Shown here one piece after another: positions 44,731 through 64,000 of a DNA stretch of 64,000 nucleotides. The DNA is from an uncultured Holophagaceae bacterium (lineage in GTDB: Bacteria > Acidobacteriota > Holophagae > Holophagales > Holophagaceae). Under the pieces are notes generated by a model, which did no database searches, was not told the DNA's origin, and saw nothing but the letters and a program-made list of their open reading frames with translations. Position 1 is the stretch's first letter. Each line of letters starts with the position of its first letter. The position numbers and the translations under genes were made by a program. The stretch covers positions 186,001 through 250,000 of the forward strand of contig CAIZZF010000008.1 in the NCBI GenBank assembly GCA_903937385.1. Reading direction: 5' to 3'.

Positions 44731-44878
44731 GGAGGGGCCATTGTCCCATCAATGACGGGGGATCCGGGGATCCCTGGGCTGCGTCAGGATGTCGCAGCCA
44801 CGGACGTCCAGACCTATAAACCCCCCGCACCATGCCTCGTATCACAGGGGTCCGTTCCCTGTAACCGGAGGTAGATCT

Positions 44879-47710: not shown

Positions 47711-49264
47711 GTGAGACCCGAGCCCCCAGACGCCCACCCCGGCCTTGGCTGCCCCCCTGGATGGCGCCGAGGCCTGGACCTGAGGGCGTCCGTCCTGCTG
47801 GCCGCCTTGGTGCTCCTGCTGGCCGCCTGCGGCTCCTCGGGAAGCTCCCCCGCCCCATCCAGCGGTGGCACCGGGGAAACAGGCAGCACAGGCACGCCCG
47901 GCGTCTTTGCGGGCAGCATCCTGCTCGGCAGTCCCACCGCCACCTCCATCAAGGCCAATGTGCTCTCGGCCACCCAGAGCGGGACGGTCTACCTGGCCTG
48001 CGGTACGGTGAAGGGCACCTATCCGCTCAAGTCCGCGGCCGTGCCGCTCACGGCCGGAATGCCGGTGGAGCTGGCGCTCACAGGCCTCGCCGCCAACACC
48101 CAGCACTACTACCGGCTCTACTACCAGCCCGCCGGGGGCTCCTACGGCGCCACGGCCGAATACGCCTTCCACACGGCCCGCCCCGCCGGCAGCACCTTCA
48201 CCTTCACGGTCCAGGCCGACAGCCACATGGACGAGAACTCCAGCCAGGACATCTACCTCCGGTCCCTGGGCAACATCGCCGCCGCCGGGGCGGACTTCCA
48301 CGTGGACCTGGGGGACACCTTCATGTGCGAGAAGCACACGGGACCCCTCAGCGCCGTGGTCCAGTCTGCGCCGGACTACGCCACGGTGGCCGCACGCTAC
48401 ACCTACGAGCGGGGGAACTTCGGCACCCTGAGCGCGGGATCCCCCCTCTTCCTGGTGAACGGCAACCATGAGGGCGAGTCCGGCTGGTTCCTCAACGGCA
48501 CCGCCAGCAACCTGGCCATCTGGACCACCCAGGCCCGCCTCCGGTACTTCGTGAACCCGGTGCCCGACGGCTTCTACAGCGGGGATGGCGTGGACGAACC
48601 CTTCGTGGGCAAGCGGGCCACCTGGTACGCCTGGACCTGGGGCGACGCCCTCTTCGTGGTGCTGGATCCCTTCTGGAACACCGCGAAGCAGCCGGGCTCC
48701 GATGGCTGGAACCTCACCCTGGGCGACCGCCAGTACGCCTGGCTCCAGCAGACCCTCACTGGCAGCCCCGCGAAGTACAAGTTCATCTTCATCCACAACC
48801 TCGTGGGCGGCCTCGACGGCCAGATGCGCGGCGGCATCGAGGCGGCGCCCTTCTTCGAGTGGGGCGGCAAGAACGCCGACGGCACCGCAGGCTACGCCCT
48901 CAAGCGGCCCACCTGGACGGACCCCATCCACACCCTGCTGGTCCGCACGGGCGTCACCGCCGTCTTCCACGGCCACGACCACCTCTATGCGAAGCAGGAC
49001 CTGGACGGCATCGTCTATCAGGAGGTGCCCCAGCCCAGCGCCGTCAACAGCCAGAGCGGCGCCACCCTCGCGGCCGCCTACCACTACACGGCGGGCACCA
49101 TCCTCAGCAGCTCCGGCCACCTGCGGGTGACCGTGGCGCCGGACAAGGTGACGGCCCAGTACATCCGCACCTGGCTGCCCGCCGCCGAGACCGCCACGCT
49201 GAAGAACGGCTCCGTGGACCACACCTGGACCGTGGCCGCGCCCCTCAAGACCCGGACCCCATGA
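47711..49264 (+). CDS. Lipoprotein metallophosphoesterase, purple acid phosphatase-like
   Basis: A 517-residue predicted lipoprotein (LLAALVLLLAAC lipobox). An N-terminal fibronectin-type-III-like domain (about residues 70-155: ILLGSPTATSIKANVLS, TQHYYRLYYQPAG) precedes a calcineurin-type phosphoesterase domain. Its metal-binding motifs are DSH in VQADSHMDE, GDT in VDLGDTF, GNHE in LVNGNHEGE, a His in FIHNLVGG and GHDH in VFHGHDHLYA. This is the plan of purple acid phosphatases and alkaline phosphatase D-like enzymes, so a cell-surface phosphomonoesterase is likely. The start is a GTG with GGAG upstream. Its stop overlaps the next gene (ATGA), a paralogue. Confidence 0.88.
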   Translation: MRPEPPDAHPGLGCPPGWRRGLDLRASVLLAALVLLLAACGSSGSSPAPSSGGTGETGSTGTPGVFAGSILLGSPTATSIKANVLSATQSGTVYLACGTVKGTYPLKSAAVPLTAGMPVELALTGLAANTQHYYRLYYQPAGGSYGATAEYAFHTARPAGSTFTFTVQADSHMDENSSQDIYLRSLGNIAAAGADFHVDLGDTFMCEKHTGPLSAVVQSAPDYATVAARYTYERGNFGTLSAGSPLFLVNGNHEGESGWFLNGTASNLAIWTTQARLRYFVNPVPDGFYSGDGVDEPFVGKRATWYAWTWGDALFVVLDPFWNTAKQPGSDGWNLTLGDRQYAWLQQTLTGSPAKYKFIFIHNLVGGLDGQMRGGIEAAPFFEWGGKNADGTAGYALKRPTWTDPIHTLLVRTGVTAVFHGHDHLYAKQDLDGIVYQEVPQPSAVNSQSGATLAAAYHYTAGTILSSSGHLRVTVAPDKVTAQYIRTWLPAAETATLKNGSVDHTWTVAAPLKTRTP

Positions 49265-50961
49265 AGGTAGCCCGCGACCTCCCTCCGCTGCTGCTGCCAG
49301 CGCTGCTTGCCGGTGTCCTGGTGATCCTGGCCTGCCAGTCCGCCGGGGGCTCCGCACCCGCCGCTGCCACGGCCAGCGCTCCGGTGGCGGCCTTCCCCGC
49401 CCCCTCGGGCAGCCCCGTGGTGGGCCTGTCCCTGGCCTTCACGGACGCCAGCACCGGCGGTCCCACCGCCTGGACCTGGAGCTTCGGAGACGGCGGCACC
49501 AGCACCCTGCAGAACCCCACCCACGCCTACCTGGTGGCGGGCACCTTCACGGTGACCCTGCGGGCCACCAACACCGCCGGGGCCACCACCGCCAGCCGCT
49601 CCCTCACGGTGGGAGCGGGCGCCGCTGGCGCTGCCTTCAGGGGCAACGTCGTGCTGGGCAGCCCCACGGCTACCTCCATCCTGGTCAACGTCTTCTCGCC
49701 GGACCAGGGCGGCACGATCTACCTGATCTACGGCACGGCATCGGGCACCACCACCCGGCAGAGCCCCGCCGCGACCCTGGTGGCCGGCACACCTTTGGAG
49801 ATCAGCCTGGACGGCCTCAGCCCGGACACCCAGTACACCTACCGCCTCTGCTACCAGGTCGGCACCGCCAGCGCCTCCGTGGGCGAGGAGTGCACCTTCC
49901 ACACGGCCCGCCCCGCAGGCAGCACCTTCACCTTCTGCCTCCAGGGCGACAGCCACCCGGAGCGGCTCAAGACCCAGTTCGATGCGGCCCTCTACCAGCG
50001 CACCCTCCAGACCGCCGCCGCAGACCGGCCGGACTTCTACCTGCTCCTGGGCGACGACTTCAGCGTGGACACGCTGGATCCCGCCACCGTCAACGCCGCC
50101 CTGGTGACGGAGCGCTACACCCTGCAGCGACCCTACCTCGGGATCGTCGGCCGCTCGGCCCCGGTGTTCCTGGTGAACGGCAACCACGAGCAGGCGGCGC
50201 GGTATCTGCTGGACGGCACGCCCAACAATGTCGCGGTGTGGGCCCAGACCGCCCGGAACCGCCACTACTCCCAGCCGGCGCCCGACAGCTTCTATTCCGG
50301 CAACACCGAGGTGGTGCCCAACATCGGCCTGCTGCGCAACACCTTCGCCTGGACCTGGGGCGAGGCGCTGTTCGTGGTGATCGATCCCTACTGGGGCTCA
50401 CCGGTCTGCGTGGACGACCCCTTCTTCGGCGGCGCCAAGCGCAGCAACCTCTGGGACATCACCCACGGGGACGCCCAGTACCAGTGGCTCAAGGCCACCC
50501 TGGAGCAGAGCCGCGCCAAGTACAAGTTCGTCTTCGCGCACCACGTGATGGGCACCCAGCGCGGCGGCATCGAGGTGGCGGGCCTCTACGAGTGGGGCGG
50601 CAGCAGTGCCAACGGCAGCTGGGGCTTCACCGCCAACCGGCCCACCTGGGCCTCCCCCATCCACCAGCTCATGGCCGCCAACAAGGTCACCATCTTCTTC
50701 CAGGGCCACGACCACATCTGGGTGCGCCAGCAGCTGGACGGCGTCACCTACCAGACGCTCTCGGAGCCGGCCGATCCCAACTACTCACTCTTCAACTCGG
50801 ACGCCTACCTCAGCGGCGACAAGCTCCCCAACACCGGCTACACCCGGGTCAGCGTGGCCCCCACCGGCGTGAAGGTGGACTACGTCCGCACCTGGCTCCC
50901 CGCCGATGAAGGCCCCGGCAAGGTCAGCGGCAGCGTGGCGTTCAGCTACACGATCCCCTAG
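49261..50961 (+). CDS. Lipoprotein with PKD domain and purple-acid-phosphatase-like domain
   Basis: A 566-residue lipoprotein (LLPALLAGVLVILAC). A PKD domain at about residues 40-118 (FTDASTGGPTAWTWSFGDGG, PTHAYLVAGTFTVTL) is followed by a fibronectin-III-like domain (VVLGSPTATSILVNVFS) and a phosphoesterase domain with LQGDSHPE, LLLGDDFS, LVNGNHEQ, FAHHVMG and FQGHDHIW. It is clearly a tandem paralogue of the gene before it, plus the PKD module, and is coupled to it by an ATGA overlap. The PKD unit is of the same type as in the arylsulfotransferase genes further right, which links the two gene groups. The 137 bp after the stop hold small dyads but no gene. Confidence 0.9.
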   Translation: MKVARDLPPLLLPALLAGVLVILACQSAGGSAPAAATASAPVAAFPAPSGSPVVGLSLAFTDASTGGPTAWTWSFGDGGTSTLQNPTHAYLVAGTFTVTLRATNTAGATTASRSLTVGAGAAGAAFRGNVVLGSPTATSILVNVFSPDQGGTIYLIYGTASGTTTRQSPAATLVAGTPLEISLDGLSPDTQYTYRLCYQVGTASASVGEECTFHTARPAGSTFTFCLQGDSHPERLKTQFDAALYQRTLQTAAADRPDFYLLLGDDFSVDTLDPATVNAALVTERYTLQRPYLGIVGRSAPVFLVNGNHEQAARYLLDGTPNNVAVWAQTARNRHYSQPAPDSFYSGNTEVVPNIGLLRNTFAWTWGEALFVVIDPYWGSPVCVDDPFFGGAKRSNLWDITHGDAQYQWLKATLEQSRAKYKFVFAHHVMGTQRGGIEVAGLYEWGGSSANGSWGFTANRPTWASPIHQLMAANKVTIFFQGHDHIWVRQQLDGVTYQTLSEPADPNYSLFNSDAYLSGDKLPNTGYTRVSVAPTGVKVDYVRTWLPADEGPGKVSGSVAFSYTIP

Positions 50962-51137: not shown

Positions 51138-52754
51138 GTTTATTCGGCTTTGCATTGAAAGAAAAGGGATATGGAACACGCATTTGACGCTCGTTTTGGC
51201 CAACAGTTATGTGATTCGATCGCAAGAGAGCTTGGCTTTGTCTGCAGTTTCATGGGGATTGGCGGCGTCATTGTCGCATCCAGTGCGCGGGAAAGAATCG
51301 GGAAAGTCCATGCCATTGCCGCCCGTATCATGGCCGGTGAGATGAGCCAAAAGGCTGTCACGGCAGAGGAGGCCGCCCGCTCAAAGGACGTCAGGGAAGG
51401 CCTCAATATCGCCATTGACCTCGACGGTGTCCGGCTCGCCAATTTCGCCATTGCCGGCGCGTTGGCCAAGGTTGAACCACTGGCTCACGTCATGAGCCAA
51501 TTCGTCATTCTGGTGATGCGGGTTCAGTTCGCCGACAAGGCTCGGCTGGCCCATGTCGCAGCGCAGGTGGATCGGGCCGACCAGGCAGTCACCACGGCCT
51601 TTTCCGCTGCAGAGGGCGGCGAAGCGGCTGTCACTGCCCTGATGGATGCAACCAGCCGCATCAGCTTGTTCATCGAGCAGATTCGGAGTGTTGCGCGGAT
51701 GACCAATATGCTTTCCCTGTATGCCAGGATCGAAGCCGCGTGTGTCGGTGATGCCGGCCAGGGTTTTGCGGTCGTTGCGACTGAAGTCAAGAGCTTGTCA
51801 AACAGATCGGCCAATAGCACGGAGGAGATCACGAGGCAGGTCGGACAGGTTCAGGTGGCCGCCAAGGGGGTCATCGGCTCCTTTTCCGCCGTGTCAAAGT
51901 CGGTCGGCTTCCTGAAGTCTTCCATTGCCCAAATCGCAACGACCATGGCGACGGCAGAAACCCTTGAGAACAGCGCGGCAACGGCGATCGCATTCGATCC
52001 TGCCTTTGGTCAGGAACTGTGCGACATGGTCGCCGGACGACTTGGCTACGTTTGTTCCTTCATGGGAAAGGGTGGCCTCATTGTGGCGTCCAGCGCTCGG
52101 GAGCGGATCGGCAACATCCACGCTGTTGCCGCCAGCATCATGGCGGGGAAAATCGACGAACGCGCTGTGACGGCCGAAGAAGCCGCGACCTCGGAGGGAA
52201 TGCGGGAAGGCTACAGCGTCGGCATTGACCTTGGAGGCGTACGGATGGTTAATTTCGGGATCGGGGGGCCCCTGGCAGAAGTCACACCGCTGGCGCGGGT
52301 GATCAGCCGATTTGTAACCTCAGTGCTGGGGTCCCGGAGTGCCGATTCCATCCGGAATCACTGGGTCTCCCAGCAGATCGAGACAACCACCCAATTCGCT
52401 TCGGATGCGGAGAGGGACGCAAAGGGCGCCATCGACACGGTCGGGCTGTTGACCGAAGCGATCAGCCAGATCGGACGCATTACGGGCCAGATCCGCGACA
52501 TCGCAGAACAGACCAACCTCCTGGCGTTGAATGCCACCATCGAGGCCTCCCGTGCCGGCGCCGCTGGCAGGGGGTTCGCAGTGGTGGCGAATGAAGTGAA
52601 GACCCTCTCCAAGCAGGCGGGGGAAGCCACCTTCGACATCCATCGCCAGATCAGCATGATTGAGGGTGAAACCCGCAAGGTGCACGAAGCCATCTCGGCC
52701 GTATCCCGGTCGGTCCACGAGATCACCACCCAGGTTGCGAAGATGGCCGCGTAG
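51138..52754. mobile_element. Probable horizontally acquired segment
   Basis: From about 51138 the sequence has clearly lower GC and uses codons rare in the neighbours (for example AGA, ATT, GCA, TCA, TTT). It holds a single gene for a chemoreceptor with its own AT-rich promoter-like upstream stretch. The left edge follows directly on the interrupted gene start at 51099-51137. No transposase, integrase, terminal repeat or target duplication is visible, so the transfer mechanism is unknown. The right edge lies somewhere between 52754 and 52805. Confidence 0.45.
51171..52754 (+). CDS. Soluble chemoreceptor with two duplicated sensor-signalling units
   Basis: A 527-residue methyl-accepting chemotaxis-type protein without signal peptide or membrane segment, so cytoplasmic. 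It consists of two related halves. Residues 1-125 and about 265-390 are sensor domains with the shared pattern [25 protein letters not shown] and VTAEEAA, reminiscent of the sugar-diacid recognition domain of CdaR. Each is followed by an MCP signalling hairpin. The second is canonical ([37 protein letters not shown]); the first is shorter and altered ([34 protein letters not shown]). The ATG follows AAGGGA. No che genes are near. Composition suggests transfer, perhaps from an alphaproteobacterium. Confidence 0.85.
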
Positions 52755-52805
52755 CCGGGTCATTCGCCCCCTGGGGCTTTGGCAGCCAGATGGGCTCAGA
52801 AGGAC

Positions 52806-53534
52806 TTACTCCAGCCCCAGCCGCTCGCGGAGCTTGGGGGTGGCGCCGCGGCTGGCCTCGAGCTCCACGCCGCCGGTCATGCGCACCATGACCCGGGCGC
52901 CGCCGCCGGAGGAGCGGAGGCCCAGCACCGCTTCGGGGCGGATGAGCAGGTGGCGGTGGATGCGCAGCAGGCCCGCGTCCGGAAAGAAGGCCTCCACCTC
53001 GCCCAGGGTCTTCCACTTGGTGCGGAAGCGGTCCCCGGCAAAGGCCCACACCACCTGTTCCTCCACCTCGAAGAAGGCGGTCTTGGCCAGGTCCAGGAAG
53101 AGCATGCCGCCCCCGGCGGTGACGGGGTAGCGCGTGGCGCGGGGGCCCTTCTCGGGCTCGGTGTTCTCCTCGCGGCCCAGGTGCCGACGGATGCGCGCCA
53201 GGGCCTTCACCAGCCGGGGCGTGGTCACGGGCTTCAGCAGGAAGTCCACGGCCTCCAGGTCGAAGGCCTCCACCGCGTGCTCCGCAAAGGCCGTTACGAA
53301 GACCACGGGCACTTTCTCGGGCAGGGAGGCGCGCAGGGCGAGGCCGTCCAGACCCGGCATCTGGATGTCCAGGAAGAGCCCGTCCACCGCGGGGGCGGAC
53401 CGCATCCACTCCTCCATCTCCAGGCCGTTGCTGAAGGTCGCCACCACCTCGCAGCCGCAGTCCTCCAGCAGCCGGGCCAGGCGCTTCTGATTCAAGGGCT
53501 CATCCTCGGCGATGGCCACCCGCAGCGGAGTCAT
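52806..53534 (-). CDS. LytTR-family response regulator
   Basis: A 242-residue regulator: receiver domain with Asp56 (GLFLDIQMPGLDG), conserved Lys in DFLLKPV, and a C-terminal LytTR DNA-binding domain (FFEVEEQVVWAFAGDRFRTKWKTLGEVEAFF, LRIHRHLLIRPEAVLGL). LytTR regulators typically control surface polysaccharides, autolysins or secreted factors. Its start overlaps the sensor stop by 4 bp (ATGA). It is the last gene of the minus-strand series that begins with the arylsulfotransferase genes. Confidence 0.95.
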   Translation of the reverse strand: MTPLRVAIAEDEPLNQKRLARLLEDCGCEVVATFSNGLEMEEWMRSAPAVDGLFLDIQMPGLDGLALRASLPEKVPVVFVTAFAEHAVEAFDLEAVDFLLKPVTTPRLVKALARIRRHLGREENTEPEKGPRATRYPVTAGGGMLFLDLAKTAFFEVEEQVVWAFAGDRFRTKWKTLGEVEAFFPDAGLLRIHRHLLIRPEAVLGLRSSGGGARVMVRMTGGVELEASRGATPKLRERLGLE

Positions 53535-55012
53535 GCGCCCAGCCTATCCCGCACGCGCAGCTCGGCCAAGGTCCAGCCGTCTTCCGAGTGCAGTTCCAGG
53601 GAGGCGTCCAGCGACGGCGTGAGGGCGAGTCGCTCCCGCAGGTGGTGCAGGCCCGTGCCTTCGGCCTCGCCTGGCTTAAGGGCCTGGCCGGTGTTCGCCA
53701 CCCGGAAGATGAGATCACGAGAGCTGCGGGACACGCCGATGCGCAGCGTGCCGCCCTCTGGGTGGGCGGCGATGCCGTGCTTGATGGCGTTCTCCACCAG
53801 GGGCAGCAGCAGCAGCGGGGGCAGCTTCACGGCATCGGCCCACTCCGGCCAGTCCCACTTCAGCTGCAGGCGGGCGCCAAGGCGAATCCCCTCGATGCCC
53901 AGGTAGTGCTTGAGCAGGGCGCGTTCCTGGCTCAGCGGCAGCTCGCTGGCGCCACTCTGGCGGGTGAGCATCCGCAGCATCTCCACCAGCCCGACGATGG
54001 CCTCCTCCGCCGCATCCGGGTCCTCGTGCACCAGCTCCGCCAGCCCGCCCAGGATGTTGTAGAGGGCGTGGGGATGCAGCTGGGCCTGAAGGGCCTTGAC
54101 CTGGGCCTGCCGGGCCCGCTCGAGCAGCTCGGCCTCCGTGGACTCGGCCCGCTCCTTGTCGGCAAGGAACCAGCCCAGCACCATGGCGAAGGGCAGGTTC
54201 AGCAGGAAGAGCATGAACTCCTGGCGGTGGGCCGGAAAGGCCTTGGCGAAGAGGCCCGGGGCTGCTGCGGGCTCGCTGGCGACGGGCTCCTGGACTTCGG
54301 TGGCCGGGGCCTCCAGCACCTGCGGGACGGGCGTGGGAACCGCCGCAGCAGGCTCACGCTGCGGCTGAGCCACGGGTGGCCGCGGCTGCACCTCGCGGCG
54401 CGGAGGTGCCGTGTCCCGGGGCCGAGGAGCCTGCTCGCCCAGCGTCTGCTCCGCGTCTCGCCGCGGAGGACGCGGTCCCCGGCGTTCCCCCGGAGGCAGC
54501 AGCTCCCAGGGCACCTCGCCGGGGTTGTGGGGGGGCTTGGCCTCCTGGTCCTGGGGCCGATCTCCGCGCCGGCGGCTGCGAGCAGCCGGGTCCTGGGCTT
54601 CTTGGGGCCTCGGATCTTCGCGTTCCTGGAGGACCAGGGCGGACTTGGCCTCGGCGGCCGGGGCCGGGCGGGGTCCGCGGGCTGGCCGATCCTCCGGGAA
54701 GAGCCCGCTCATCAGCAGCAGCAGGGCCGCCAGCCAGGCGATGTTCCAGGGCAGGGCCTGGAGGCAGCCCCGCCAGAGGGGTGCGATGGGGCGCGCGTCC
54801 TGGGTCCACTGCCAGGGGATGGGGCTCAGGGCCAGGTGCCCCGCCAGCACCAGGGCCGGCACCACGAACTCGCCCACCCCCAGGCGGCCGAAGGGCTGCC
54901 CCGCGAGCAGCCGCACCAGCACCCAGACCAGTCCGAACACAATCAGTGCGCCCCAGGTGGCCGGGAGCCGGAACCGCTTGGCCGTGGAGGCCGGGAAGTC
55001 CTGGAGTCGCAT
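53531..55012 (-). CDS. LytS-type sensor histidine kinase with long Pro/Arg-rich insert
   Basis: A 493-residue kinase. Three membrane segments in the first 105 residues are followed by an unusual charged, Pro/Arg/Gln-rich stretch of about 145 residues (roughly 107-255: PRPQEAQDPAARSRRRGDRPQDQ and similar). A fourth membrane segment (FMLFLLNLPFAMVLGWFLA), a coiled coil (ELLERARQAQVKALQAQL) and a His_kinase domain (PF06580 type: HPHALYNIL with phospho-acceptor His) come next. The ATPase part shows LLPLVENAIKHGI and TGLHHLRERL. The insert's side of the membrane is uncertain. It is translationally coupled to the LytTR regulator and lies 58 bp downstream of the DUF1566 gene. Confidence 0.92.
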   Translation of the reverse strand: MRLQDFPASTAKRFRLPATWGALIVFGLVWVLVRLLAGQPFGRLGVGEFVVPALVLAGHLALSPIPWQWTQDARPIAPLWRGCLQALPWNIAWLAALLLLMSGLFPEDRPARGPRPAPAAEAKSALVLQEREDPRPQEAQDPAARSRRRGDRPQDQEAKPPHNPGEVPWELLPPGERRGPRPPRRDAEQTLGEQAPRPRDTAPPRREVQPRPPVAQPQREPAAAVPTPVPQVLEAPATEVQEPVASEPAAAPGLFAKAFPAHRQEFMLFLLNLPFAMVLGWFLADKERAESTEAELLERARQAQVKALQAQLHPHALYNILGGLAELVHEDPDAAEEAIVGLVEMLRMLTRQSGASELPLSQERALLKHYLGIEGIRLGARLQLKWDWPEWADAVKLPPLLLLPLVENAIKHGIAAHPEGGTLRIGVSRSSRDLIFRVANTGQALKPGEAEGTGLHHLRERLALTPSLDASLELHSEDGWTLAELRVRDRLGA

Positions 55013-55070: not shown

Positions 55071-56660
55071 TCAGGGCGCGTCCCGGACCAGGCGGACGAA
55101 GTTCAGGCCGCGGATGGCATCGCCCTGGGGGCCGAAGGAGTAGCCGATGGAGGTCGTGCCGTTCTTCGTGACCGAGTGGGCCGTGGCGTAGGGATAGGGA
55201 GGCCCGACCTTGGGATCACTGCGCTGACAACCGGCGCCATGTACGTCCACCCAACCACTGGAAGGCCAGCCCAGGGCTCGCCCGAAGGGGATGTAGACCG
55301 CCTGGCTACCCGCCGAGCCCGTGGTGCTGTAGCCCGCATGGGTGGTGGAGGTCCAGTAGTAGGGGAAGTCAGCATCCCCGTTCTCGTTGGTGATGCCGGT
55401 GCAGGTGAAGTAGGCCGTGTCCAGGGCGGGCTTGCCGTTGTAGTCCGGGGCATTGGCGTAGCTCACCAGGCTGTGGAGCTCCTTGGCGTTCGGCAGGCGC
55501 CAGTCCGCGTGGCCCAGGTGGCGGGCCGCGCTCCGGGCCTGGGCCCAGGCCAGAGCCGCCTGCCAGGTCACGGGGCTGCCGTTGTCGGCCTTCGTCCACA
55601 TGAGACCCGTGGCCGCATCGCGGACGGTGCCATCCCCCAGGTCCGTAAAGGCGTTGTTGCCATAGCCACCAGTACCCCGCACCAGCTGCACGAAGAAGGT
55701 CTTCTCCGCGCCGCCGGGCATGATCAGGTCGTAGCCCTTGATGCGACCATCGGCCAGGTTCAAGCCGAAGAGCTTGGGATAGCCAGTCTCTGCCGGGTTC
55801 AGGGTGAAGAGGTTGCTGGAGGCATATTGGGAGTCGATGAGCCGCTCCCCGGTGCTGGTCTGGCCGTAGGCGAAGACGAAATAGGCCGTGTCGATGAAGG
55901 GCGTCAGCACCGAGGTGTCGGTGCCGGTGTAGCTGCTGGGGTCCGTGCCCCTGAAGTTCATCAAGGAGTAGAGCTCCTTGATGGTGGGCAGGCGCCAGTC
56001 GCTGATGCCGCCGTAGGTCATGGCATTCACCGTGGCCACCCAGGCCTGGGCTCCGGACCAGGTCTTCTTGTCGGCCGAAGTGGGTGCGGCGAGGGTGGTG
56101 TTGGGTCCCCGCATCCAGCGCAAGCCCGTCACCGAGTCGAGGACAGTCTTGCCGTCGCTGGCGAGGGTGTAGGCGGGGGCGTGGTCCGCGAACTGTGCGT
56201 CCTGCCCATAGAATGCCGCCGAGGCCACGGGGGCCGCAAGCTCCCCGGTGGCGTCGTAGCACTTGGTCTGGCCGGAATCCACGATGGGATAGGTGAGGGC
56301 GGCGCTCGCACTGGTCACGGACACGGTGCGGGTGGCGGGGCCGCTGGACCCACCGGTATTCGAAGCGATGAGGCTGACCGTGTAGGTCCCCGCCGCAGTG
56401 TAGGCATGGGTGGGGTTCTGCACGGTACTGGTGGAGCCGTCCCCGAAGGTCCAGGACCAGGAGCTGGGGCTCCCGGTGGAGGCGTCCGTGAACGTGACCG
56501 TCTGGCTCGCCACGGGGGCTGAGGGTGCGACCGTGAAGGCTGCGGACGGAGCGGACACCGCGGTCTGGGAGCTGCTGGCACTCCCGCCGCTTCCACACCC
56601 CAGCCAGGCGAAGGCCCCGAGGCAGGTGAGCAGGCTCTGGAGGGTGCGGCGGGTGATCAT
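55071..56660 (-). CDS. Lipoprotein with one PKD and two DUF1566 domains
   Basis: A 529-residue lipoprotein (signal LLTCLGAFAWLGC, lipid Cys about residue 22). A PKD domain at about 37-115 (VTFTDASTGSPSSWSWTFGDGS, PTHAYTAAGTYTVSL) is followed by two DUF1566 (Lcl C-terminal-like) domains. Each has the pair TGLxW and DWRLPxxKEL: TGLRWMRGPN/DWRLPTIKELYSL at about 200-290, and TGLMWTKADN/DWRLPNAKELHSL at about 375-440. DUF1566 domains are extracellular and thought to bind or recognise substrates. The start at 56660 follows AAAGGA and the signal peptide. It lies 52 bp downstream of the double arylsulfotransferase gene and is probably in the same operon. Confidence 0.9.
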   Translation of the reverse strand: MITRRTLQSLLTCLGAFAWLGCGSGGSASSSQTAVSAPSAAFTVAPSAPVASQTVTFTDASTGSPSSWSWTFGDGSTSTVQNPTHAYTAAGTYTVSLIASNTGGSSGPATRTVSVTSASAALTYPIVDSGQTKCYDATGELAAPVASAAFYGQDAQFADHAPAYTLASDGKTVLDSVTGLRWMRGPNTTLAAPTSADKKTWSGAQAWVATVNAMTYGGISDWRLPTIKELYSLMNFRGTDPSSYTGTDTSVLTPFIDTAYFVFAYGQTSTGERLIDSQYASSNLFTLNPAETGYPKLFGLNLADGRIKGYDLIMPGGAEKTFFVQLVRGTGGYGNNAFTDLGDGTVRDAATGLMWTKADNGSPVTWQAALAWAQARSAARHLGHADWRLPNAKELHSLVSYANAPDYNGKPALDTAYFTCTGITNENGDADFPYYWTSTTHAGYSTTGSAGSQAVYIPFGRALGWPSSGWVDVHGAGCQRSDPKVGPPYPYATAHSVTKNGTTSIGYSFGPQGDAIRGLNFVRLVRDAP

Positions 56661-56712: not shown

Positions 56713-59700
56713 TCAGTGCCCACTGAAGGCTGAGTCGCTGTAGGCATAGCGCCGGGCCCGGTGGACGGCATTGGTCATGGGGAGGCGGTCACCCAGCGCG
56801 GTCTTGGCGCCGCTGGCGGTGATGGGGTTGATGTACTCCCAGACCACCTCTCCGGTCGAGGTGACTTCCATCAGATAGCCGGTGGTGGTGGCGCAGATCA
56901 GCGTGTTGCCGTTCGGGAGGCGCTGGGCGCTGCCTCCGAACTGACTGAAGAGGGTCAGGTTGCCCACAGAACCATACTTCCACGCCACCTGCTTGGACAG
57001 GAGCTGATTGGCCTTCATGGAGTCCTTGTCAAAGGTCCAGGTCGTATAGCCGGCGCTAGGCGGGTCGATGTAAGTGGGGCCCGCGATGCCAGCGGCGTTC
57101 ATGTGGGGGTTGATCTCGAACACGTAGGACTGGGGCGTGCGCTGGTAGAGGTACTGGTTGTTGTTGAAGAGCAGCAGGTTCCCGGCCCCAGAGAGACCAC
57201 TGGCGATCCAGGTCACATCACTGCTGCCGCCGATCTGCTTGTTCCCCGAGGTGGCGGTCTCCCAGTTCGTTCCCACCGAAGGCGGATTCCCCTGGCTGTA
57301 GCGGGCCGGGTCGCCGAAGCGGTAGAGGAAGTCGCCCGCGGTGGTGGCCGCCAGGCTGATGCTGCCCGTGGGATTCCCGGAGAGGAACGTGGCGCCGTGG
57401 TCGATGAGGTAGCACTCACCCTGCCGCGAGTTGACCACAATCTGATCCAGCGTCGAGTTGAAGTCGAGGGAGTTGCAGTCCAGCCAGTTGCTGCGCACCG
57501 GCCGCCCGGGCAGGTTGAGGTTGATCTTCCCGGGATAGTCGGCGATGGTCTTGCCCCCGGCCACAGCGTTCGCCTTGCTGGCGTCGACGCTCTGGATGGC
57601 GTGGTCCCAGAAGGACCACTCCCAGACAATGGTTCCGCTCATGTCCACTTCCACGAGGGTGTCCACCTGGGCACCGTCGAAGGGAGCATCGGCCGGATCA
57701 CAGCCGGCGGCCAGACACTGGGCCGAGGTAAGGTCCTTGTTCGCCAGGTAGAGGGTGGCGTAGGCGTTCAGCTTGGGATCGAAGATGCGCGCGAAGGCCC
57801 CGTGGGGGTGGTAGGAGCTGCGGGCCTCGGTGTACTGCCAGACGGTGTTGCCGTTCCAGTCGACCTCCTTGAGGCCCGTCGGGCCACTGGCGCCCATACT
57901 CCAGTCCAGCACATTGCCGTTCGCCAGGAGCCGGGGATCAGTCCCGGTAGGCCAGGTGTGGACCACGCGACCGTCCATGTCGATCAGCCGGGAAGTCCCC
58001 GCGGCATCCAGGAACGTATAGCCGCTGTAGGCAGCGCTGGTGTCCCAGGACTGGGTGCCCGTGGAGCGCTGGAAGGCCTGATAGTCGCTGGTGCCGGCGT
58101 AGGGATTTTCGACGCTGGTGCGCCCGGCGATGGTGGCGCCCGGGGTGAGGGTGCGTCCGGCCAGAGCGGGATGGGTCGCCTTGTATCGGAAGGCACGGAA
58201 GATCGAGTTGACCATGGGGAGGCGGTCACCCAGCACCTTGTAGACAGTGGGCCCGGACAGGGGAACGATGTATTCCCAGACAGTCCCGCCGGCTGGTGTC
58301 ACTTCCAGAATGTGGCCTTCGGTGTCGGCACAGACCAGGGTGTTCCCATTGGGTAGACGCTGGGCGCTGCAGCCGATGGTGCTGAACAGGGTCTGGCTGT
58401 CCAGCGAGTAGAAGTTCCCCACGACCTGCTTGGAGACCTGCCGAGGGCTGTTGTCTGTCACCGCGGGCCGGGTGAGCGTGACATAGCCAGCGTCGGGCGG
58501 ATTCACGTACTTCCCCGTGTCAATGCCGCTGGCATCAAGGTAGGGGTTGATCTCCATCACGTAGGACTGGGCGGCGTGTTCGGAGAGGTATTCGGCATTG
58601 TTGAAGACGAGGAAGTGCCCGGCGCCGCTAAGGCCTTCCTGCATCCACTGGATGTCGTGCGCGCCCCCTAGCTGCTTGTGGCCGGTAGTGGAAAGGGTCC
58701 AGTCCTCCAGGATGGAGGGCTTGGTGCCCTGGTCGTAGCGGGCGGGGTCCCCGAAGCGGTAGAGGAAGTCCCCCGCGCTGGTGGCCGCCAGAGAGATGCT
58801 GCCAGTCGGGTTCCCCGAGAGGAAGGTGTTGCCATGGTCGATGACATAGAACTCGCCTTGCACGGAGTTGATGACGATCTGGTCGAGCGACTGGTTGTAG
58901 TCCAGTGAGTTGCAGTGCAGCCAGTCGGCCTTCAGGTTGTGCCCCGCGAGGTTGAGGTTCAGCTTGTTGGGGTAGTCGGCAATGGTCTTGCCGCTGCCGA
59001 CGTAGTTCGACTTGGTGGAGGCAACATCCTGCACGAGGTGATCGAAGAAGCACCACTCCCACACGATGGTGCCGCTGGCATCCACCTCCACGATGGCGTC
59101 CAGCTGGGCGCCTGTCGAGGGCGCTCGGGTGGGGTCCGCCCCCGCTTCGATGAGCTGGGCGTAGGTGAAGTCCTTGTTGGCGATGATCAGGGTTGTGTAG
59201 GCCTTGAGCTTGGGATTGTAGATGCGGGTGAAGTCGTGGTGGGGATGATAGGTGGCGCGGGACTCGACGTAGGACCAGACCGTCAACCCGTTCCAGTCAA
59301 CTTCCTTGAAGGTCCCGAAGCCACTGGGATCATTGGTCCCGGCATCCAGCACATTGCCATCGGCCAGCAGGTGCGGGTTGGTACCCACGGGCCAGATGTG
59401 GACGACCCTGCCCTGCATGTCGAGCAGGTAGGTCTTGCCACCCGCCCCGAAGAACGTGTAGCCCTCCTCGGCCTTGGCGGAGTCCCAATACTGCAGCTCC
59501 GTGGGTCGCTCGAGCGCGACATGGCTGGTGGTTGACGACGCACTCACGGTGAGGCTGTGGGTGATGGGGGTGCTGGCGCCCGCGGCGTTGCTGGCCATCA
59601 GCGTGACGGTGTAGGCGCCCGCTGTGGTGTAGGCGTGGGTGGGACTCTGCGCCGTGCTGGTGGAGCCGTCGCCGAAGGTCCAGGCCCAGCTGGTGGGCGT

Positions 59701-60642
59701 GCCCGTGGAGGCATCCGTGAAGGTGACCGTCTGGGCTGTCGTGGGGGATGTCGGGCTGAAGCTGAAGGCGGCGGTGGGGGCCGTGGCCGCAGCGGTCACG
59801 GTGACGCTGTGGGTGACGGGGGCCCCGGCACCCGCGACATTGCGGGCCGTCAGCGTGACAGGGTAGGTGCCAGCCGTGGTGTAGGCGTGGGCGGGGCTCT
59901 GCGCCGTGCTGGTGGAACCGTCGCCGAAGGTCCAGGACCAGCTGGTCGGCGTGCCGGCCGAGGCATCCGTGAAGGTGACCGTCTGGGCTGTCGTGGGGGA
60001 TGTCGGGCTGAAGCTGAAGGCGGCGGTGGGGGCCGTGGCAGCGGCGGTTACAGTGACGCTGTGGGTGACAGGGGTGCTGGCGCCCGCGGCGTTGCTGGCC
60101 GTCAGTGTGACGGTGTAGGTGCCTGCCGTGCTGTAGGCGTGGGTGGGACTCTGTGCGGTGCTGGTGCCGCCGTCGCCAAAGGTCCAGGCCCAGCTGGTGG
60201 GCGTGCCCACGGAGGCGTCCGCGAAGGTGACCGTCTGGGCTGTCGTGGGGGCGGTCGGGCTGAAGCTGAAGGCCGCCGTGGGAACCACCACCGCCTGGCT
60301 CACCGTGAGGCTCTTGCTCAGGGTTCCGTTACCGCCGGCATTGGTGACCGTTAGCGCCACGGTGTAGGTGCCGGCCACGGTGTAGGCGTGGGTGGGACTC
60401 TGCACGGTGCTGGTGCCACCGTCACCAAAGGTCCAGGACCAACCCGTGGGAATGCCGGTAGAGGCGTCCGTGAAGGTGACCGTCTGCGCGGTGGCCGGGA
60501 CAGCAGGACTGAAGCTGAAGGCGGCGGTGGGGGCAGCTGTTACGGAAGGGGTGGGCGAGGAGCCACCCCCACCTCCGCAGCTCAGGCTGACGAGAAAAAC
60601 GAGCACCGCACCAATCATGTGAATGAGACGAACGATACGCAT
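56713..60642 (-). CDS. Lipoprotein with four PKD domains and two arylsulfotransferase domains
   Basis: A 1309-residue surface lipoprotein (LVFLVSLSC lipobox). Four PKD domains at about 38-116, 120-200, 204-284 and 288-368 are nearly identical in the last three. They are followed by two tandem arylsulfotransferase-type beta-propeller units (375-845 and 848-1309). Arylsulfotransferases move sulfate between phenolic esters without PAPS. Aligned by spacing to E. coli AssT (His252, His356, Arg374, His436), unit 1 keeps His469, His576 and His662 but has Val594 in place of Arg. Unit 2 keeps Arg1073 but has Gly948, Asp1055 and Ser1141 in place of the three His. Unit 1 may be partly active; unit 2 looks structural. 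The ATG follows CAGGAGC, 36 bp after the previous stop. Confidence 0.88.
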   Translation of the reverse strand: MRIVRLIHMIGAVLVFLVSLSCGGGGGSSPTPSVTAAPTAAFSFSPAVPATAQTVTFTDASTGIPTGWSWTFGDGGTSTVQSPTHAYTVAGTYTVALTVTNAGGNGTLSKSLTVSQAVVVPTAAFSFSPTAPTTAQTVTFADASVGTPTSWAWTFGDGGTSTAQSPTHAYSTAGTYTVTLTASNAAGASTPVTHSVTVTAAATAPTAAFSFSPTSPTTAQTVTFTDASAGTPTSWSWTFGDGSTSTAQSPAHAYTTAGTYPVTLTARNVAGAGAPVTHSVTVTAAATAPTAAFSFSPTSPTTAQTVTFTDASTGTPTSWAWTFGDGSTSTAQSPTHAYTTAGAYTVTLMASNAAGASTPITHSLTVSASSTTSHVALERPTELQYWDSAKAEEGYTFFGAGGKTYLLDMQGRVVHIWPVGTNPHLLADGNVLDAGTNDPSGFGTFKEVDWNGLTVWSYVESRATYHPHHDFTRIYNPKLKAYTTLIIANKDFTYAQLIEAGADPTRAPSTGAQLDAIVEVDASGTIVWEWCFFDHLVQDVASTKSNYVGSGKTIADYPNKLNLNLAGHNLKADWLHCNSLDYNQSLDQIVINSVQGEFYVIDHGNTFLSGNPTGSISLAATSAGDFLYRFGDPARYDQGTKPSILEDWTLSTTGHKQLGGAHDIQWMQEGLSGAGHFLVFNNAEYLSEHAAQSYVMEINPYLDASGIDTGKYVNPPDAGYVTLTRPAVTDNSPRQVSKQVVGNFYSLDSQTLFSTIGCSAQRLPNGNTLVCADTEGHILEVTPAGGTVWEYIVPLSGPTVYKVLGDRLPMVNSIFRAFRYKATHPALAGRTLTPGATIAGRTSVENPYAGTSDYQAFQRSTGTQSWDTSAAYSGYTFLDAAGTSRLIDMDGRVVHTWPTGTDPRLLANGNVLDWSMGASGPTGLKEVDWNGNTVWQYTEARSSYHPHGAFARIFDPKLNAYATLYLANKDLTSAQCLAAGCDPADAPFDGAQVDTLVEVDMSGTIVWEWSFWDHAIQSVDASKANAVAGGKTIADYPGKINLNLPGRPVRSNWLDCNSLDFNSTLDQIVVNSRQGECYLIDHGATFLSGNPTGSISLAATTAGDFLYRFGDPARYSQGNPPSVGTNWETATSGNKQIGGSSDVTWIASGLSGAGNLLLFNNNQYLYQRTPQSYVFEINPHMNAAGIAGPTYIDPPSAGYTTWTFDKDSMKANQLLSKQVAWKYGSVGNLTLFSQFGGSAQRLPNGNTLICATTTGYLMEVTSTGEVVWEYINPITASGAKTALGDRLPMTNAVHRARRYAYSDSAFSGH
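59539..60531 (-). repeat. Four tandem PKD-coding repeats, 252-bp period
   Basis: Units of 84 codons encode PTAAFSFSP, QTVTFTDAS, WTFGDG and HAYTTAGTY in the same order four times. Units 2 to 4 (about 59539-60290) are so alike at DNA level that recent duplication or gene conversion is likely, and their number could vary between strains. Confidence 0.85.
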
Positions 60643-60678: not shown

Positions 60679-63600
60679 CTACTTGACGATGTAGTCACCC
60701 ACGGTCAGGGTCCGGCCTGTGAAGGCCCCGTAGCTGGCGGGGTACTTGTAGATCCTGAACACGGAGTTGAGCGTCTCGCTGGCGTGGGTCGGGTCGGTGA
60801 TGGGGGTACCGCCCTGAGGGATCACGCCACTGGCCTGAACCGGGCAGACATACTTCCAGACGACTTCACCCAGGTAGCTGACCTCCCGCAGATCGCCCGT
60901 GCCACCCGAACAGATGATCGTGTTCCCGTTCGGCAGTCGCTGGGCCCCGGAGATGTTCTCGGAATACATGGGGTAGGCGGTGTCGCCCCAGTAGCTCCAG
61001 GTGTAATCCGCTGGCAGGTAGGGCTTGCCAGCGGCCGTGGGCGCGGTGTAGTTGCCGCTGGCGTTCACGTCAGGCTTGAACTCTTCGACAGAAGAGGCAT
61101 TGGTCAGGGAGCGATTCAGGCCGTTGTCGAAGCAGGTGATGTTGCCAGCCCCGGGGCAGTCGAACTTGATCCACTCCGTGTCGTGCTGCTGCCAGTATTT
61201 CTCCGTGGCCAGGGTCTTGGGCACGCCATACATGGCGGGATTGCCCCAGCGATAGAGCAGGTCCCCGCCCTTGCCCCGCTTGCCCCCACTGTGACCGGCG
61301 GCCTCGGCCGTGGTGACGCTGTGGTCAATGATCCACACTTCACTGTGATTCCGCATGCTGATGGCAATCTGATCGAAGCCTGGGTGGTAGTCCACCGAGT
61401 TGCCGTGATTCCAGAACATGGCTCCACCGACGCAGTCGATGAGCTCGGGATGATTAACGACAACCCCAAAGTTGGACTTGGAGCTGTCGAAGCCCTGAAT
61501 CAGGTGGTCCCAGACATGCCACTCCCACACGACGGTGCCGCCGCTGCCTTTGGCGTAGTCAGGCTTGACCTCGATCAGGCACTCGGGGAGCAGCATCTGT
61601 TGGGTGGCGACATCGGGCTGGAACTTGGTCATGTCGAAGCCTGCGGCCACGCAGTCCGCGTAGGTCTTCTTCTCCACCACCAGCATGAGGATGTTCCCGT
61701 TGGGGAGCATCTTGGCATCGTGGTGCTGCCGCTGGGTGGACGTGTTCAGGTCGTAGTACCAGAGCAGGTTGCCATCCCAGTCATATTCCTCCACCCGACC
61801 GCCTTCGCCACCCCCGGTGCCCAGGGCCCCCGTGGTGATCATGCAGGTGTGCAGGAGGTGGCCGTTCTCCAGGAGATAGATACTCTGGCCCGGCGAGTAG
61901 GCACTGTTCCACTGCTTGACGATCCGGCCCTCGTTGTTGATGAGGTAGGTCATCTTGTTCTGCTTGGGGGCGAACAGGGTGTAGCCCTCCATGGCCTTGC
62001 TGGTGTTGACCATCAGGCCCACGGTCCGCTTGGCGACAAGCGTGTTGATGATCACGCTCTGGCTGTGCGTGCTCGTGCCCGCACCGCCCGTCACGGTGAG
62101 GGTGGCGGTGTAGATGCCATCCGCGGCATAGGTGTGGGAGGGGTTCGCCCCGATGCCCGTGCCGCCATCCCCGAAGGTCCAGGCATAGGCCGTGGGGCTG
62201 CCCGTGGAGGTGCTGGTGAAGGTGGCGATCTGCCCGCTCAGTGCAGTGGTGAAGGTTGCGGTCAGTACCGACGCGGGCGTGCTTATCGTGATGGCCTTGC
62301 TGGTCGTAGAGGAAGTCCCCCCGGACGCCGTGGCCGTCAGGGTGACGGTGTAGGTCCCGGCAGTCGTATAGACATACTTTGGATGCTGAACCAGGCTGGT
62401 GCCCTTGCCGTCGCCAAAGGTCCAGGCCCAGGCGACGGGCGAGCTGGTGGAAGTGTCGGTGAAGGCCACGACGTCGCCCGGCACCACGATGCTGGGGGCG
62501 GCGCTGAAGCTGGCCGTGCCTCCCGTTGAGGTGCGATTCCCCCGCACGACCCGGAACCCCACGTTGCTGGCGTAGGCCTGGGCAGGCACCGCGAAGAACT
62601 CGTCGGCGGCCGGACAGCGGTTGGATACCCGCCCATGTCCCGTGACCACGCCCGTGGTGGTGGTGAGGCCGTTGTACCAGTTGCCCCCACGCATGCCGCG
62701 GTAGGGCTTGCCATCGGTCATGGCCTGGCCCGTGGCGGGGCCGATGGGATCCTGCGCGGGACTTGCTTCCAGTGGATTGGATGCGAAGGAGGTCTGGTAG
62801 GTATTGGCGGCATACCAGTCGTAGTGCAGCTGCCAGACATTGCCCGAGGCATCGAAGAGGCCGTAGGCGTTGGCGCCATTGTGCGTCTGGTAGGAAGTGG
62901 CGCTCCCCGGCCAGCTGAAGTCGGTCTTCTGGCGCAGCGCTCCGTTGTAGAAGCCCACCGGCGTAGTCCACGGATAGGTGGCCGGGTCGGTGAGCTGATA
63001 GGGATTCCCGGAGCTCGGCCAGTTGGCCCGGCGCGTGTCCTCGTCATCACCCCAGGGGTAGTTGGCATAGGTGGCACCGCCACCCCGCGCCGCGAACTCC
63101 CACTCGGCCTCGGTCGGAAGCCGGTAGCCGCTCTGGGTGAAATCGCAGACCAGCGTGGTGAGGTCGTAGCAGGGGGTCAGGCCCGCCTGGGCGCTCAGCC
63201 AGTTGCAGTAGCCCTCGGCCCCCAGGAGCGTGATGCCCACGACCGGATGCTGGGCCCGGCCGTCCTTGAGGGAGAAGGTCGCGGTCCCATCGAACCCGAT
63301 GCTGTAGGCCACGGAGGTCTTGCCCGTCTGGTAGGCGTAGCCGTAGAGGTAGCAGTAGACCGCCGTGCCCCCCTTAACGTAGACCACGCTGCTGCGCACC
63401 TCGATGAGCCCCTGGGCCAGGGCGCTGTTCAGGTAGTCGCAGTACTGCTGCTGGGTGGTGGGCGTCGTGGCCACAAACAGGGAGCTGATGCCCACCGGGT
63501 GAAGGGGCAGCTCGTCCGTGGGGTGAGCGGGATCGTTGCCGCCTTCGCCGCCGTGGTCCCCCATCCAGTAGACGCTGGCCGGGAGGCGGGTCTCCAGGAG

Positions 63601-64000
63601 GTTGGAGAGGGGACTGATCCAGTAGGCGCGGCTGGTCGAGGTCGATCCCGAAGCACTGATGGCGGTTAAGGTCACCGTGTAGAGGCCCGAGGTGCCGAAG
63701 CTGTGGCTCGGGTGCTGCTCCTGGCTCTGGGTCCCATCGCCGAAGTCCCAGGACCAGGAAGTGGGGGTGCCCGTGGACGCATCCCGGAAGGCAAGGGTGC
63801 TGGCGGTGCCCGTGCGGAGGGCGTTGAAGCCGGCGGCGGGCGCCGCGGCTGCCACAGTCACGGACTGGCTGGTGCTGGCGAACCCCGCGGACCGGCTGAC
63901 GGTGAGGCTCACCGTGTAGCTCCCCGCCGTGGCGTAGACATGGGTGGGGAGCTGGACGGAGCTGGTCTGGCCATCCCCGAAGTTCCAGGCCCAGAAGGTC
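60679..64000 (-). CDS. PKD-FGE-like-PKD-PKD-arylsulfotransferase fusion protein (5' end beyond window)
   Basis: The frame is open to the right edge (3322 bp, about 1106 residues seen), so signal peptide and start are missing; a GTG at 63912 lies inside a PKD domain and is not the start. Domains in order: the end of one PKD, a full PKD (DASTGTPTSWSWDFGDGT), an FGE-sulfatase/SUMF1 domain (MGDHGGEGG, LPTEAEWEFAARGG, NVWQLHYDWY, MRGGNWYNG), two PKDs and one arylsulfotransferase propeller. The FGE part lacks the two catalytic Cys expected after RGGxW. The sulfotransferase part keeps the spacing-matched set HHD, WNHGNS, SMR and QHD, so it may be active. It is the first visible gene of the surface operon. 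Confidence 0.88.
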   Translation of the reverse strand, partial: TFWAWNFGDGQTSSVQLPTHVYATAGSYTVSLTVSRSAGFASTSQSVTVAAAAPAAGFNALRTGTASTLAFRDASTGTPTSWSWDFGDGTQSQEQHPSHSFGTSGLYTVTLTAISASGSTSTSRAYWISPLSNLLETRLPASVYWMGDHGGEGGNDPAHPTDELPLHPVGISSLFVATTPTTQQQYCDYLNSALAQGLIEVRSSVVYVKGGTAVYCYLYGYAYQTGKTSVAYSIGFDGTATFSLKDGRAQHPVVGITLLGAEGYCNWLSAQAGLTPCYDLTTLVCDFTQSGYRLPTEAEWEFAARGGGATYANYPWGDDEDTRRANWPSSGNPYQLTDPATYPWTTPVGFYNGALRQKTDFSWPGSATSYQTHNGANAYGLFDASGNVWQLHYDWYAANTYQTSFASNPLEASPAQDPIGPATGQAMTDGKPYRGMRGGNWYNGLTTTTGVVTGHGRVSNRCPAADEFFAVPAQAYASNVGFRVVRGNRTSTGGTASFSAAPSIVVPGDVVAFTDTSTSSPVAWAWTFGDGKGTSLVQHPKYVYTTAGTYTVTLTATASGGTSSTTSKAITISTPASVLTATFTTALSGQIATFTSTSTGSPTAYAWTFGDGGTGIGANPSHTYAADGIYTATLTVTGGAGTSTHSQSVIINTLVAKRTVGLMVNTSKAMEGYTLFAPKQNKMTYLINNEGRIVKQWNSAYSPGQSIYLLENGHLLHTCMITTGALGTGGGEGGRVEEYDWDGNLLWYYDLNTSTQRQHHDAKMLPNGNILMLVVEKKTYADCVAAGFDMTKFQPDVATQQMLLPECLIEVKPDYAKGSGGTVVWEWHVWDHLIQGFDSSKSNFGVVVNHPELIDCVGGAMFWNHGNSVDYHPGFDQIAISMRNHSEVWIIDHSVTTAEAAGHSGGKRGKGGDLLYRWGNPAMYGVPKTLATEKYWQQHDTEWIKFDCPGAGNITCFDNGLNRSLTNASSVEEFKPDVNASGNYTAPTAAGKPYLPADYTWSYWGDTAYPMYSENISGAQRLPNGNTIICSGGTGDLREVSYLGEVVWKYVCPVQASGVIPQGGTPITDPTHASETLNSVFRIYKYPASYGAFTGRTLTVGDYIVK

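Follow-up and report, generated by a model that had tools for sequence, protein, structure and literature searches.

How is a protein to be understood that carries two arylsulfotransferase (ASST) repeats, one with Val in place of the active-site Arg and the other with all three catalytic His replaced? Such a protein is encoded in the DNA analysed here, a 64,000-nt stretch from an uncultured Holophagaceae bacterium (GCA_903937385.1, contig CAIZZF010000008.1), which we refer to as the window. In E. coli AssT, Arg374 is described as a residue that coordinates the sulfuryl group (PMC13426309), and it has been reported to be conserved in the ASSTs described (PMC13426309, PMC10932419). A sequence-only reading of the locus had interpreted the two repeats as a case of complementary loss, in which the protein would be either a pseudoenzyme serving as scaffold or an enzyme whose Arg is donated across the two propellers.

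Architecture of the tandem protein and mapping of its catalytic positions

The tandem gene occupies 56713..60642 on the minus strand and its 1309-aa product consists, in this order, of a lipobox-like LVSLSC signal (a lipoprotein prediction made by eye from the sequence), four PKD domains and two ASST propeller units, namely unit 1 (aa 376-835, 58138..59517, minus strand) and unit 2 (56716..58077, minus strand). That there are two ASST repeats is borne out by Pfam: PF05935 matches in two stretches with 69.0 bits, compared with a curated cut-off of 24.2, and PF14269, the other Arylsulfotrans family, also lies above its curated cut-off. The two units are 58% identical. A frame or annotation artefact was ruled out, since the ORF is intact and recurs in relatives; in a family-wide comparison the tandem was found in two other Holophagaceae genomes only, at ~90% identity and with the same residues.

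The catalytic positions had previously been assigned by matching spacings. Here, they were mapped by aligning the units with the sequence of E. coli AssT (L129), which was located through a back-translated PDB stretch. AssT His252, His356, Asn358, Arg374 and His436 land on the columns that the spacing had assumed, His252 aligning with the second His of the HHD motif. Profile matches to PDB chains confirmed positions 356, 358, 374 and 436; for the His252 position, a half-profile against the PDB chains gave no usable match. The eight residues named in the earlier reading are all correct as read from the ORF. In unit 1, the positions of AssT His252, His356, Arg374 and His436 are taken by His469 (59236..59238), His576 (58915..58917), Val594 (58861..58863) and His662 (58657..58659), and in unit 2 by Gly948 (57799..57801), Asp1055 (57478..57480), Arg1073 (57424..57426) and Ser1141 (57220..57222), all on the minus strand. 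The Asn358 equivalent is present in both units (N578 and N1057). Unit 1 therefore has four of the five AssT residues and departs from the canonical set at Arg374, and unit 2 departs from it at all three His. His436 of AssT, the counterpart of His662, is the sulfated His.

An AlphaFold2 model of unit 1, built on 141 alignment rows (pLDDT 94.3, pTM 0.94), predicts an AssT-like beta-propeller fold. Its best PDB matches are Cpz4, the caprazamycin sulfotransferase of Streptomyces (PDB 9KF4/9KF6; Z 29.5, 320 residues, 19% identity), and then AssT (3ELQ; VIA-align Z 24.5, rmsd 3.3 over 327 residues). Cpz4, the closest solved fold, differs from unit 1 in that the alignment fragments show SGR and QHD motifs, with the Arg apparently present, and in that it is not a tandem. 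Unit 1 resembles E. coli AssT (PDB 3ELQ/3ETS) in its propeller fold and in its His252, His356, Asn358 and His436 equivalents, but it has Val for Arg374, stands in tandem with a degenerate copy and is part of a PKD lipoprotein. The model of the whole tandem, with 14 alignment rows, was poor (pLDDT 48) and was not used for contacts between units; we infer the fold of unit 2 from the conservation of its core columns.

Unit 1 as a member of a widespread V-type group

Relatives were collected in one scan of genome contigs, which yielded 78 loci of 170 relatives from Verrucomicrobia, Lentisphaerae, Planctomycetes, Acidobacteria, Hydrogenedentes, Bacteroidetes and others, using patterns that cover His356 and leave out position 374. 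With the window and a small number of additional loci, they supplied 179 ASST units, of which 72 are R-type and 80 V-type, the latter with H, H, N, V, H; the other 27, here called X, depart from the V-type. Position 374 of the R-type units holds Arg in 69 cases, His in 2 and Lys in 1. Val is found there in 80 of the 80 V-type units, a number that is partly due to definition, as the residues had defined the group; independently of the group definition, none of the V or X units that have all three His carries Arg at 374. Judged by these comparisons, unit 1 belongs, as a typical member, to the V-type, a widespread, many-phylum ASST group with Val for Arg374. Because Val occupies this position throughout the group, unit 1 is not an enzyme that has recently lost its Arg.

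Could the Val simply be a tolerated defect? Among the X copies only 1 of 27 has Val at the Val594 position, and this loss in nearly all degenerate copies suggests that Val is constrained, and so functional, in live V-type units. It implies that Val594 would act as active-site residues do in a functioning protein. The earlier description of unit 1 as having lost only its Arg, that is, as a damaged enzyme, is at odds with a Val that is invariant in the V-type and disappears when copies degenerate. In the literature searched, we found no description of the V-type group, its degenerate partners or their pairing beyond a mention in passing in one MAG paper.

History of the Arg in unit 2

In a tree computed with the catalytic columns removed, the first units and the second units of the tandems fall into separate clades of 14 each, both with a support of 99. 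A second group of X units, from Verrucomicrobia and relatives, adjoins V-type genes of the same organisms and joins the clade of those V-type genes (support 100), not the tandem second units. A topology with all X units outside V was rejected (p-AU 0.011), and one with the unit 2 group outside all other V and X units was not (p-AU 0.25). The tree favours independent origins of the X copies, with their union into one clade being borderline and not firmly rejected (p-AU 0.059). Parsimony on this tree reconstructs position 374 as V in the ancestor of the V/X group and as E in that of the unit 2 group, so that Arg1073 would be secondary and not retained. Across relatives the residue is Glu, Arg or Ala, and the Arg is most likely derived, probably through a secondary gain, contrary to the implication that unit 2 had kept it.

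This history bears directly on the proposal that unit 1 borrows Arg1073 and thereby regains an active site like that of AssT. Such an arrangement would account for the combination of Val in unit 1 and Arg in unit 2 at the aligned position, which is seen in the tandem protein and eight relatives. However, V-type units are mostly single-propeller proteins without a second unit, and these have the same Val with nothing at hand to lend an Arg. Moreover, although unit 2 has Arg at 374 in 9 of 15 fused tandems, it has Glu in the remaining 6, and in a distant member of the phylum, whose units are encoded by two distinct genes (H/H/V/H and H/E/A/N), the residue is Ala. The ancestral states given by parsimony, V and E, also speak against a loan, and the site of AssT is contained in one propeller. 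Donation across the propellers, and with it the idea of complementary loss, is in our opinion extremely improbable.

Erosion and selection in the degenerate copies

Wherever the contig permits the check, the 27 X copies have a V-type unit in the same ORF or adjoining. In the second units of the tandems, the 112 columns that are near-invariant in the V-type have a mean retention of 0.88, but the H469, H576, V594 and F815 columns are retained in none of them and the D573, H662 and I756 columns in 7%. Ranked by erosion in unit-2-type copies, the four catalytic columns come within the first six or seven of the 112, for which our own combinatorics, taking the columns as independent and equal, give a chance of ~1e-6. 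None of the Verrucomicrobia-type X units retains V594 or H662. At positions 356 and 374 of the second units, the residue pair is D/R in nine cases, R/E in three and like-charged in none, which tentatively suggests a structural salt bridge, although few independent events underlie these counts.

Is unit 2 then merely decaying and without function? It has indeed evolved somewhat faster than unit 1: among 13 tandems the mean pairwise identity is 0.74 for unit 1 and 0.71 for unit 2, unit 2 is the less identical of the two in 70 of 78 pairs, and the dN/dS values between the window and locus L051 are 0.065 (unit 1), 0.116 (unit 2) and 0.057 (R-type unit). Nevertheless, the dN/dS of unit 2 still ranges within 0.12-0.17, the fold core is almost fully retained and second units occur across phyla, all of which makes plain decay very unlikely. 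Unit 2 is probably a maintained pseudoenzyme, predicted to be inactive. The pseudoenzyme proposal of the sequence-only reading is accordingly upheld for unit 2, where three of four catalytic residues are gone from a conserved fold core under selection. As far as sequences can tell, these degenerate second copies offer a clear case of a pseudoenzyme kept beside a probably active relative across phyla. A separate kind of departure was seen in the tandem at L114:6360-9722, whose first unit has lost the His252 equivalent only (Asp).

The R-type partner and the gene neighbourhood

Only 36 nt upstream of the tandem gene lies a partner gene (60679..64000, minus strand), which continues past the window (L050) and encodes ~1502 aa in all. 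Its product is a predicted lipoprotein with many PKD domains, which lie on both sides of an FGE-like domain, and an R-type ASST unit (60697-62022). The earlier statement that this third ASST domain keeps all four catalytic residues proved right: the unit carries H/H/N/R/H at 61722-61183, and so shares with E. coli AssT both the His252, His356, Asn358 and His436 equivalents and Arg374. In the FGE-like stretch, MRGGNWYNGLTTTTG, the Cys pair expected at the active site of a formylglycine-generating enzyme was not seen when the sequence was read by eye. The DsbA/DsbL and DsbI genes that adjoin E. coli AssT were not seen at the window locus. Downstream of the tandem gene, a further minus-strand gene (55071..56660, likely start 56660) encodes a PKD and Lcl_C lipoprotein, and two metallophosphoesterase-like genes are found on the plus strand (47711-49261 and 49261-50961); the second matches Pfam Metallophos, and for the first, Pfam gives nothing at 1e-4, whereas a profile built from the second gene together with its relatives matches it strongly.

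The association with canonical ASSTs extends beyond the window. Among the 43 full loci, those with at least 5 kb on either side of the V-type unit, an R-type ASST and an FGE-like domain were each found near the V-type unit in 39, a metallophosphoesterase in 31 and Lcl_C in 25; no close R-type was found in the genome for L099 and L117. Pfam assignments for 85 neighbours included Metallophos 29, FGE-sulfatase 16, Sulfatase 14, PBP 10 and Lcl_C 9. Fusions into one ORF also occur, of V with R in seven loci (L055, L057, L061, L069, L086, L088, L101) and of X with R in three (L063, L066, L121). The V and R fusion ORFs are very long, and five of the seven also hold a degenerate unit, which in L086 comes first. 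Linkage and fusion are evidence that the V, X and R proteins work together, and not evidence for what they do.

Taking together the residue mapping, the predicted unit 1 fold, the tree, the selection results and the gene linkage and fusions, we consider it reasonably probable that the tandem protein is a secreted lipoprotein in which a non-canonical, probably active ASST-like transferase is joined to a maintained pseudoenzyme, and that it acts with an R-type ASST. Spaced by PKD domains and presumably located at the surface, the protein would hold two ASST-fold propellers. Unit 1 would most likely carry out a His-dependent group transfer through His662, with a donor or an acceptor that differs from those of canonical ASSTs. 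One point against this is that Arg374 is described as coordinating the sulfuryl group in AssT, so that an enzyme with Val there may be altogether unable to transfer such groups. Unit 2 would descend from a duplicated V-type unit, have given up catalysis and been kept for binding or scaffolding, and both units would work with the canonical R-type ASST whose gene lies immediately upstream.

The same neighbourhood could be taken to mean that V-type proteins are receptors for sulfate esters or glycans, with both units non-catalytic and the R-type partner doing the chemistry. The lack of Arg374 in all V-type units, the almost constant presence of an adjoining R-type and the FGE-like, Lcl_C and PKD neighbours, domains often used for binding, would all fit such a role. 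Yet the presumed nucleophile His662 and the two other His are kept in the 80 V-type units and lost in the second copies, which is the pattern of catalytic constraint, and we regard pure binding as rather unlikely. Less probable still is that the His trio, together with Asp573, binds a metal or works on phosphate esters. Asp573 is present in 100% of V-type units, is replaced by Phe in the R-type and is eroded in X, and metallophosphoesterases, sulfatases and phosphodiesterases are common neighbours; however, V-type units retain Asn358 as sulfotransferases do. Returning to the transferase that we favour for unit 1, a broader version of it, in which the V-type is a new group of enzymes with changed chemistry, working outside the cell as part of an assembly that also contains a canonical ASST and a pseudoenzyme, and in which such pseudoenzyme partners evolved from the V-type more than once, is offered as a tentative possibility that we would not bet on. 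A large group with Val fixed at 374, all His kept and linkage or fusion to canonical ASSTs makes the role of Arg374 testable.

Along the window, the order is the metallophosphoesterase genes on the plus strand, then chemoreceptor and two-component genes, and then the Lcl_C, tandem and R-type partner genes on the minus strand. Locus L051 retains the R-type and tandem genes, kinase- and regulator-sized genes, a chemoreceptor-sized gene and a metallophosphoesterase. The interval between the ASST genes and the phosphoesterases (51171-55012) codes for a chemoreceptor-like protein, in which Diacid_rec and MCP-signal each match in two stretches, for a LytTR response regulator and for a His_kinase protein. 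Adjoining the phosphoesterases on their other side, a Met-zincin protein (DUF4953/DUF5117) is encoded at 44789-47512 on the plus strand.
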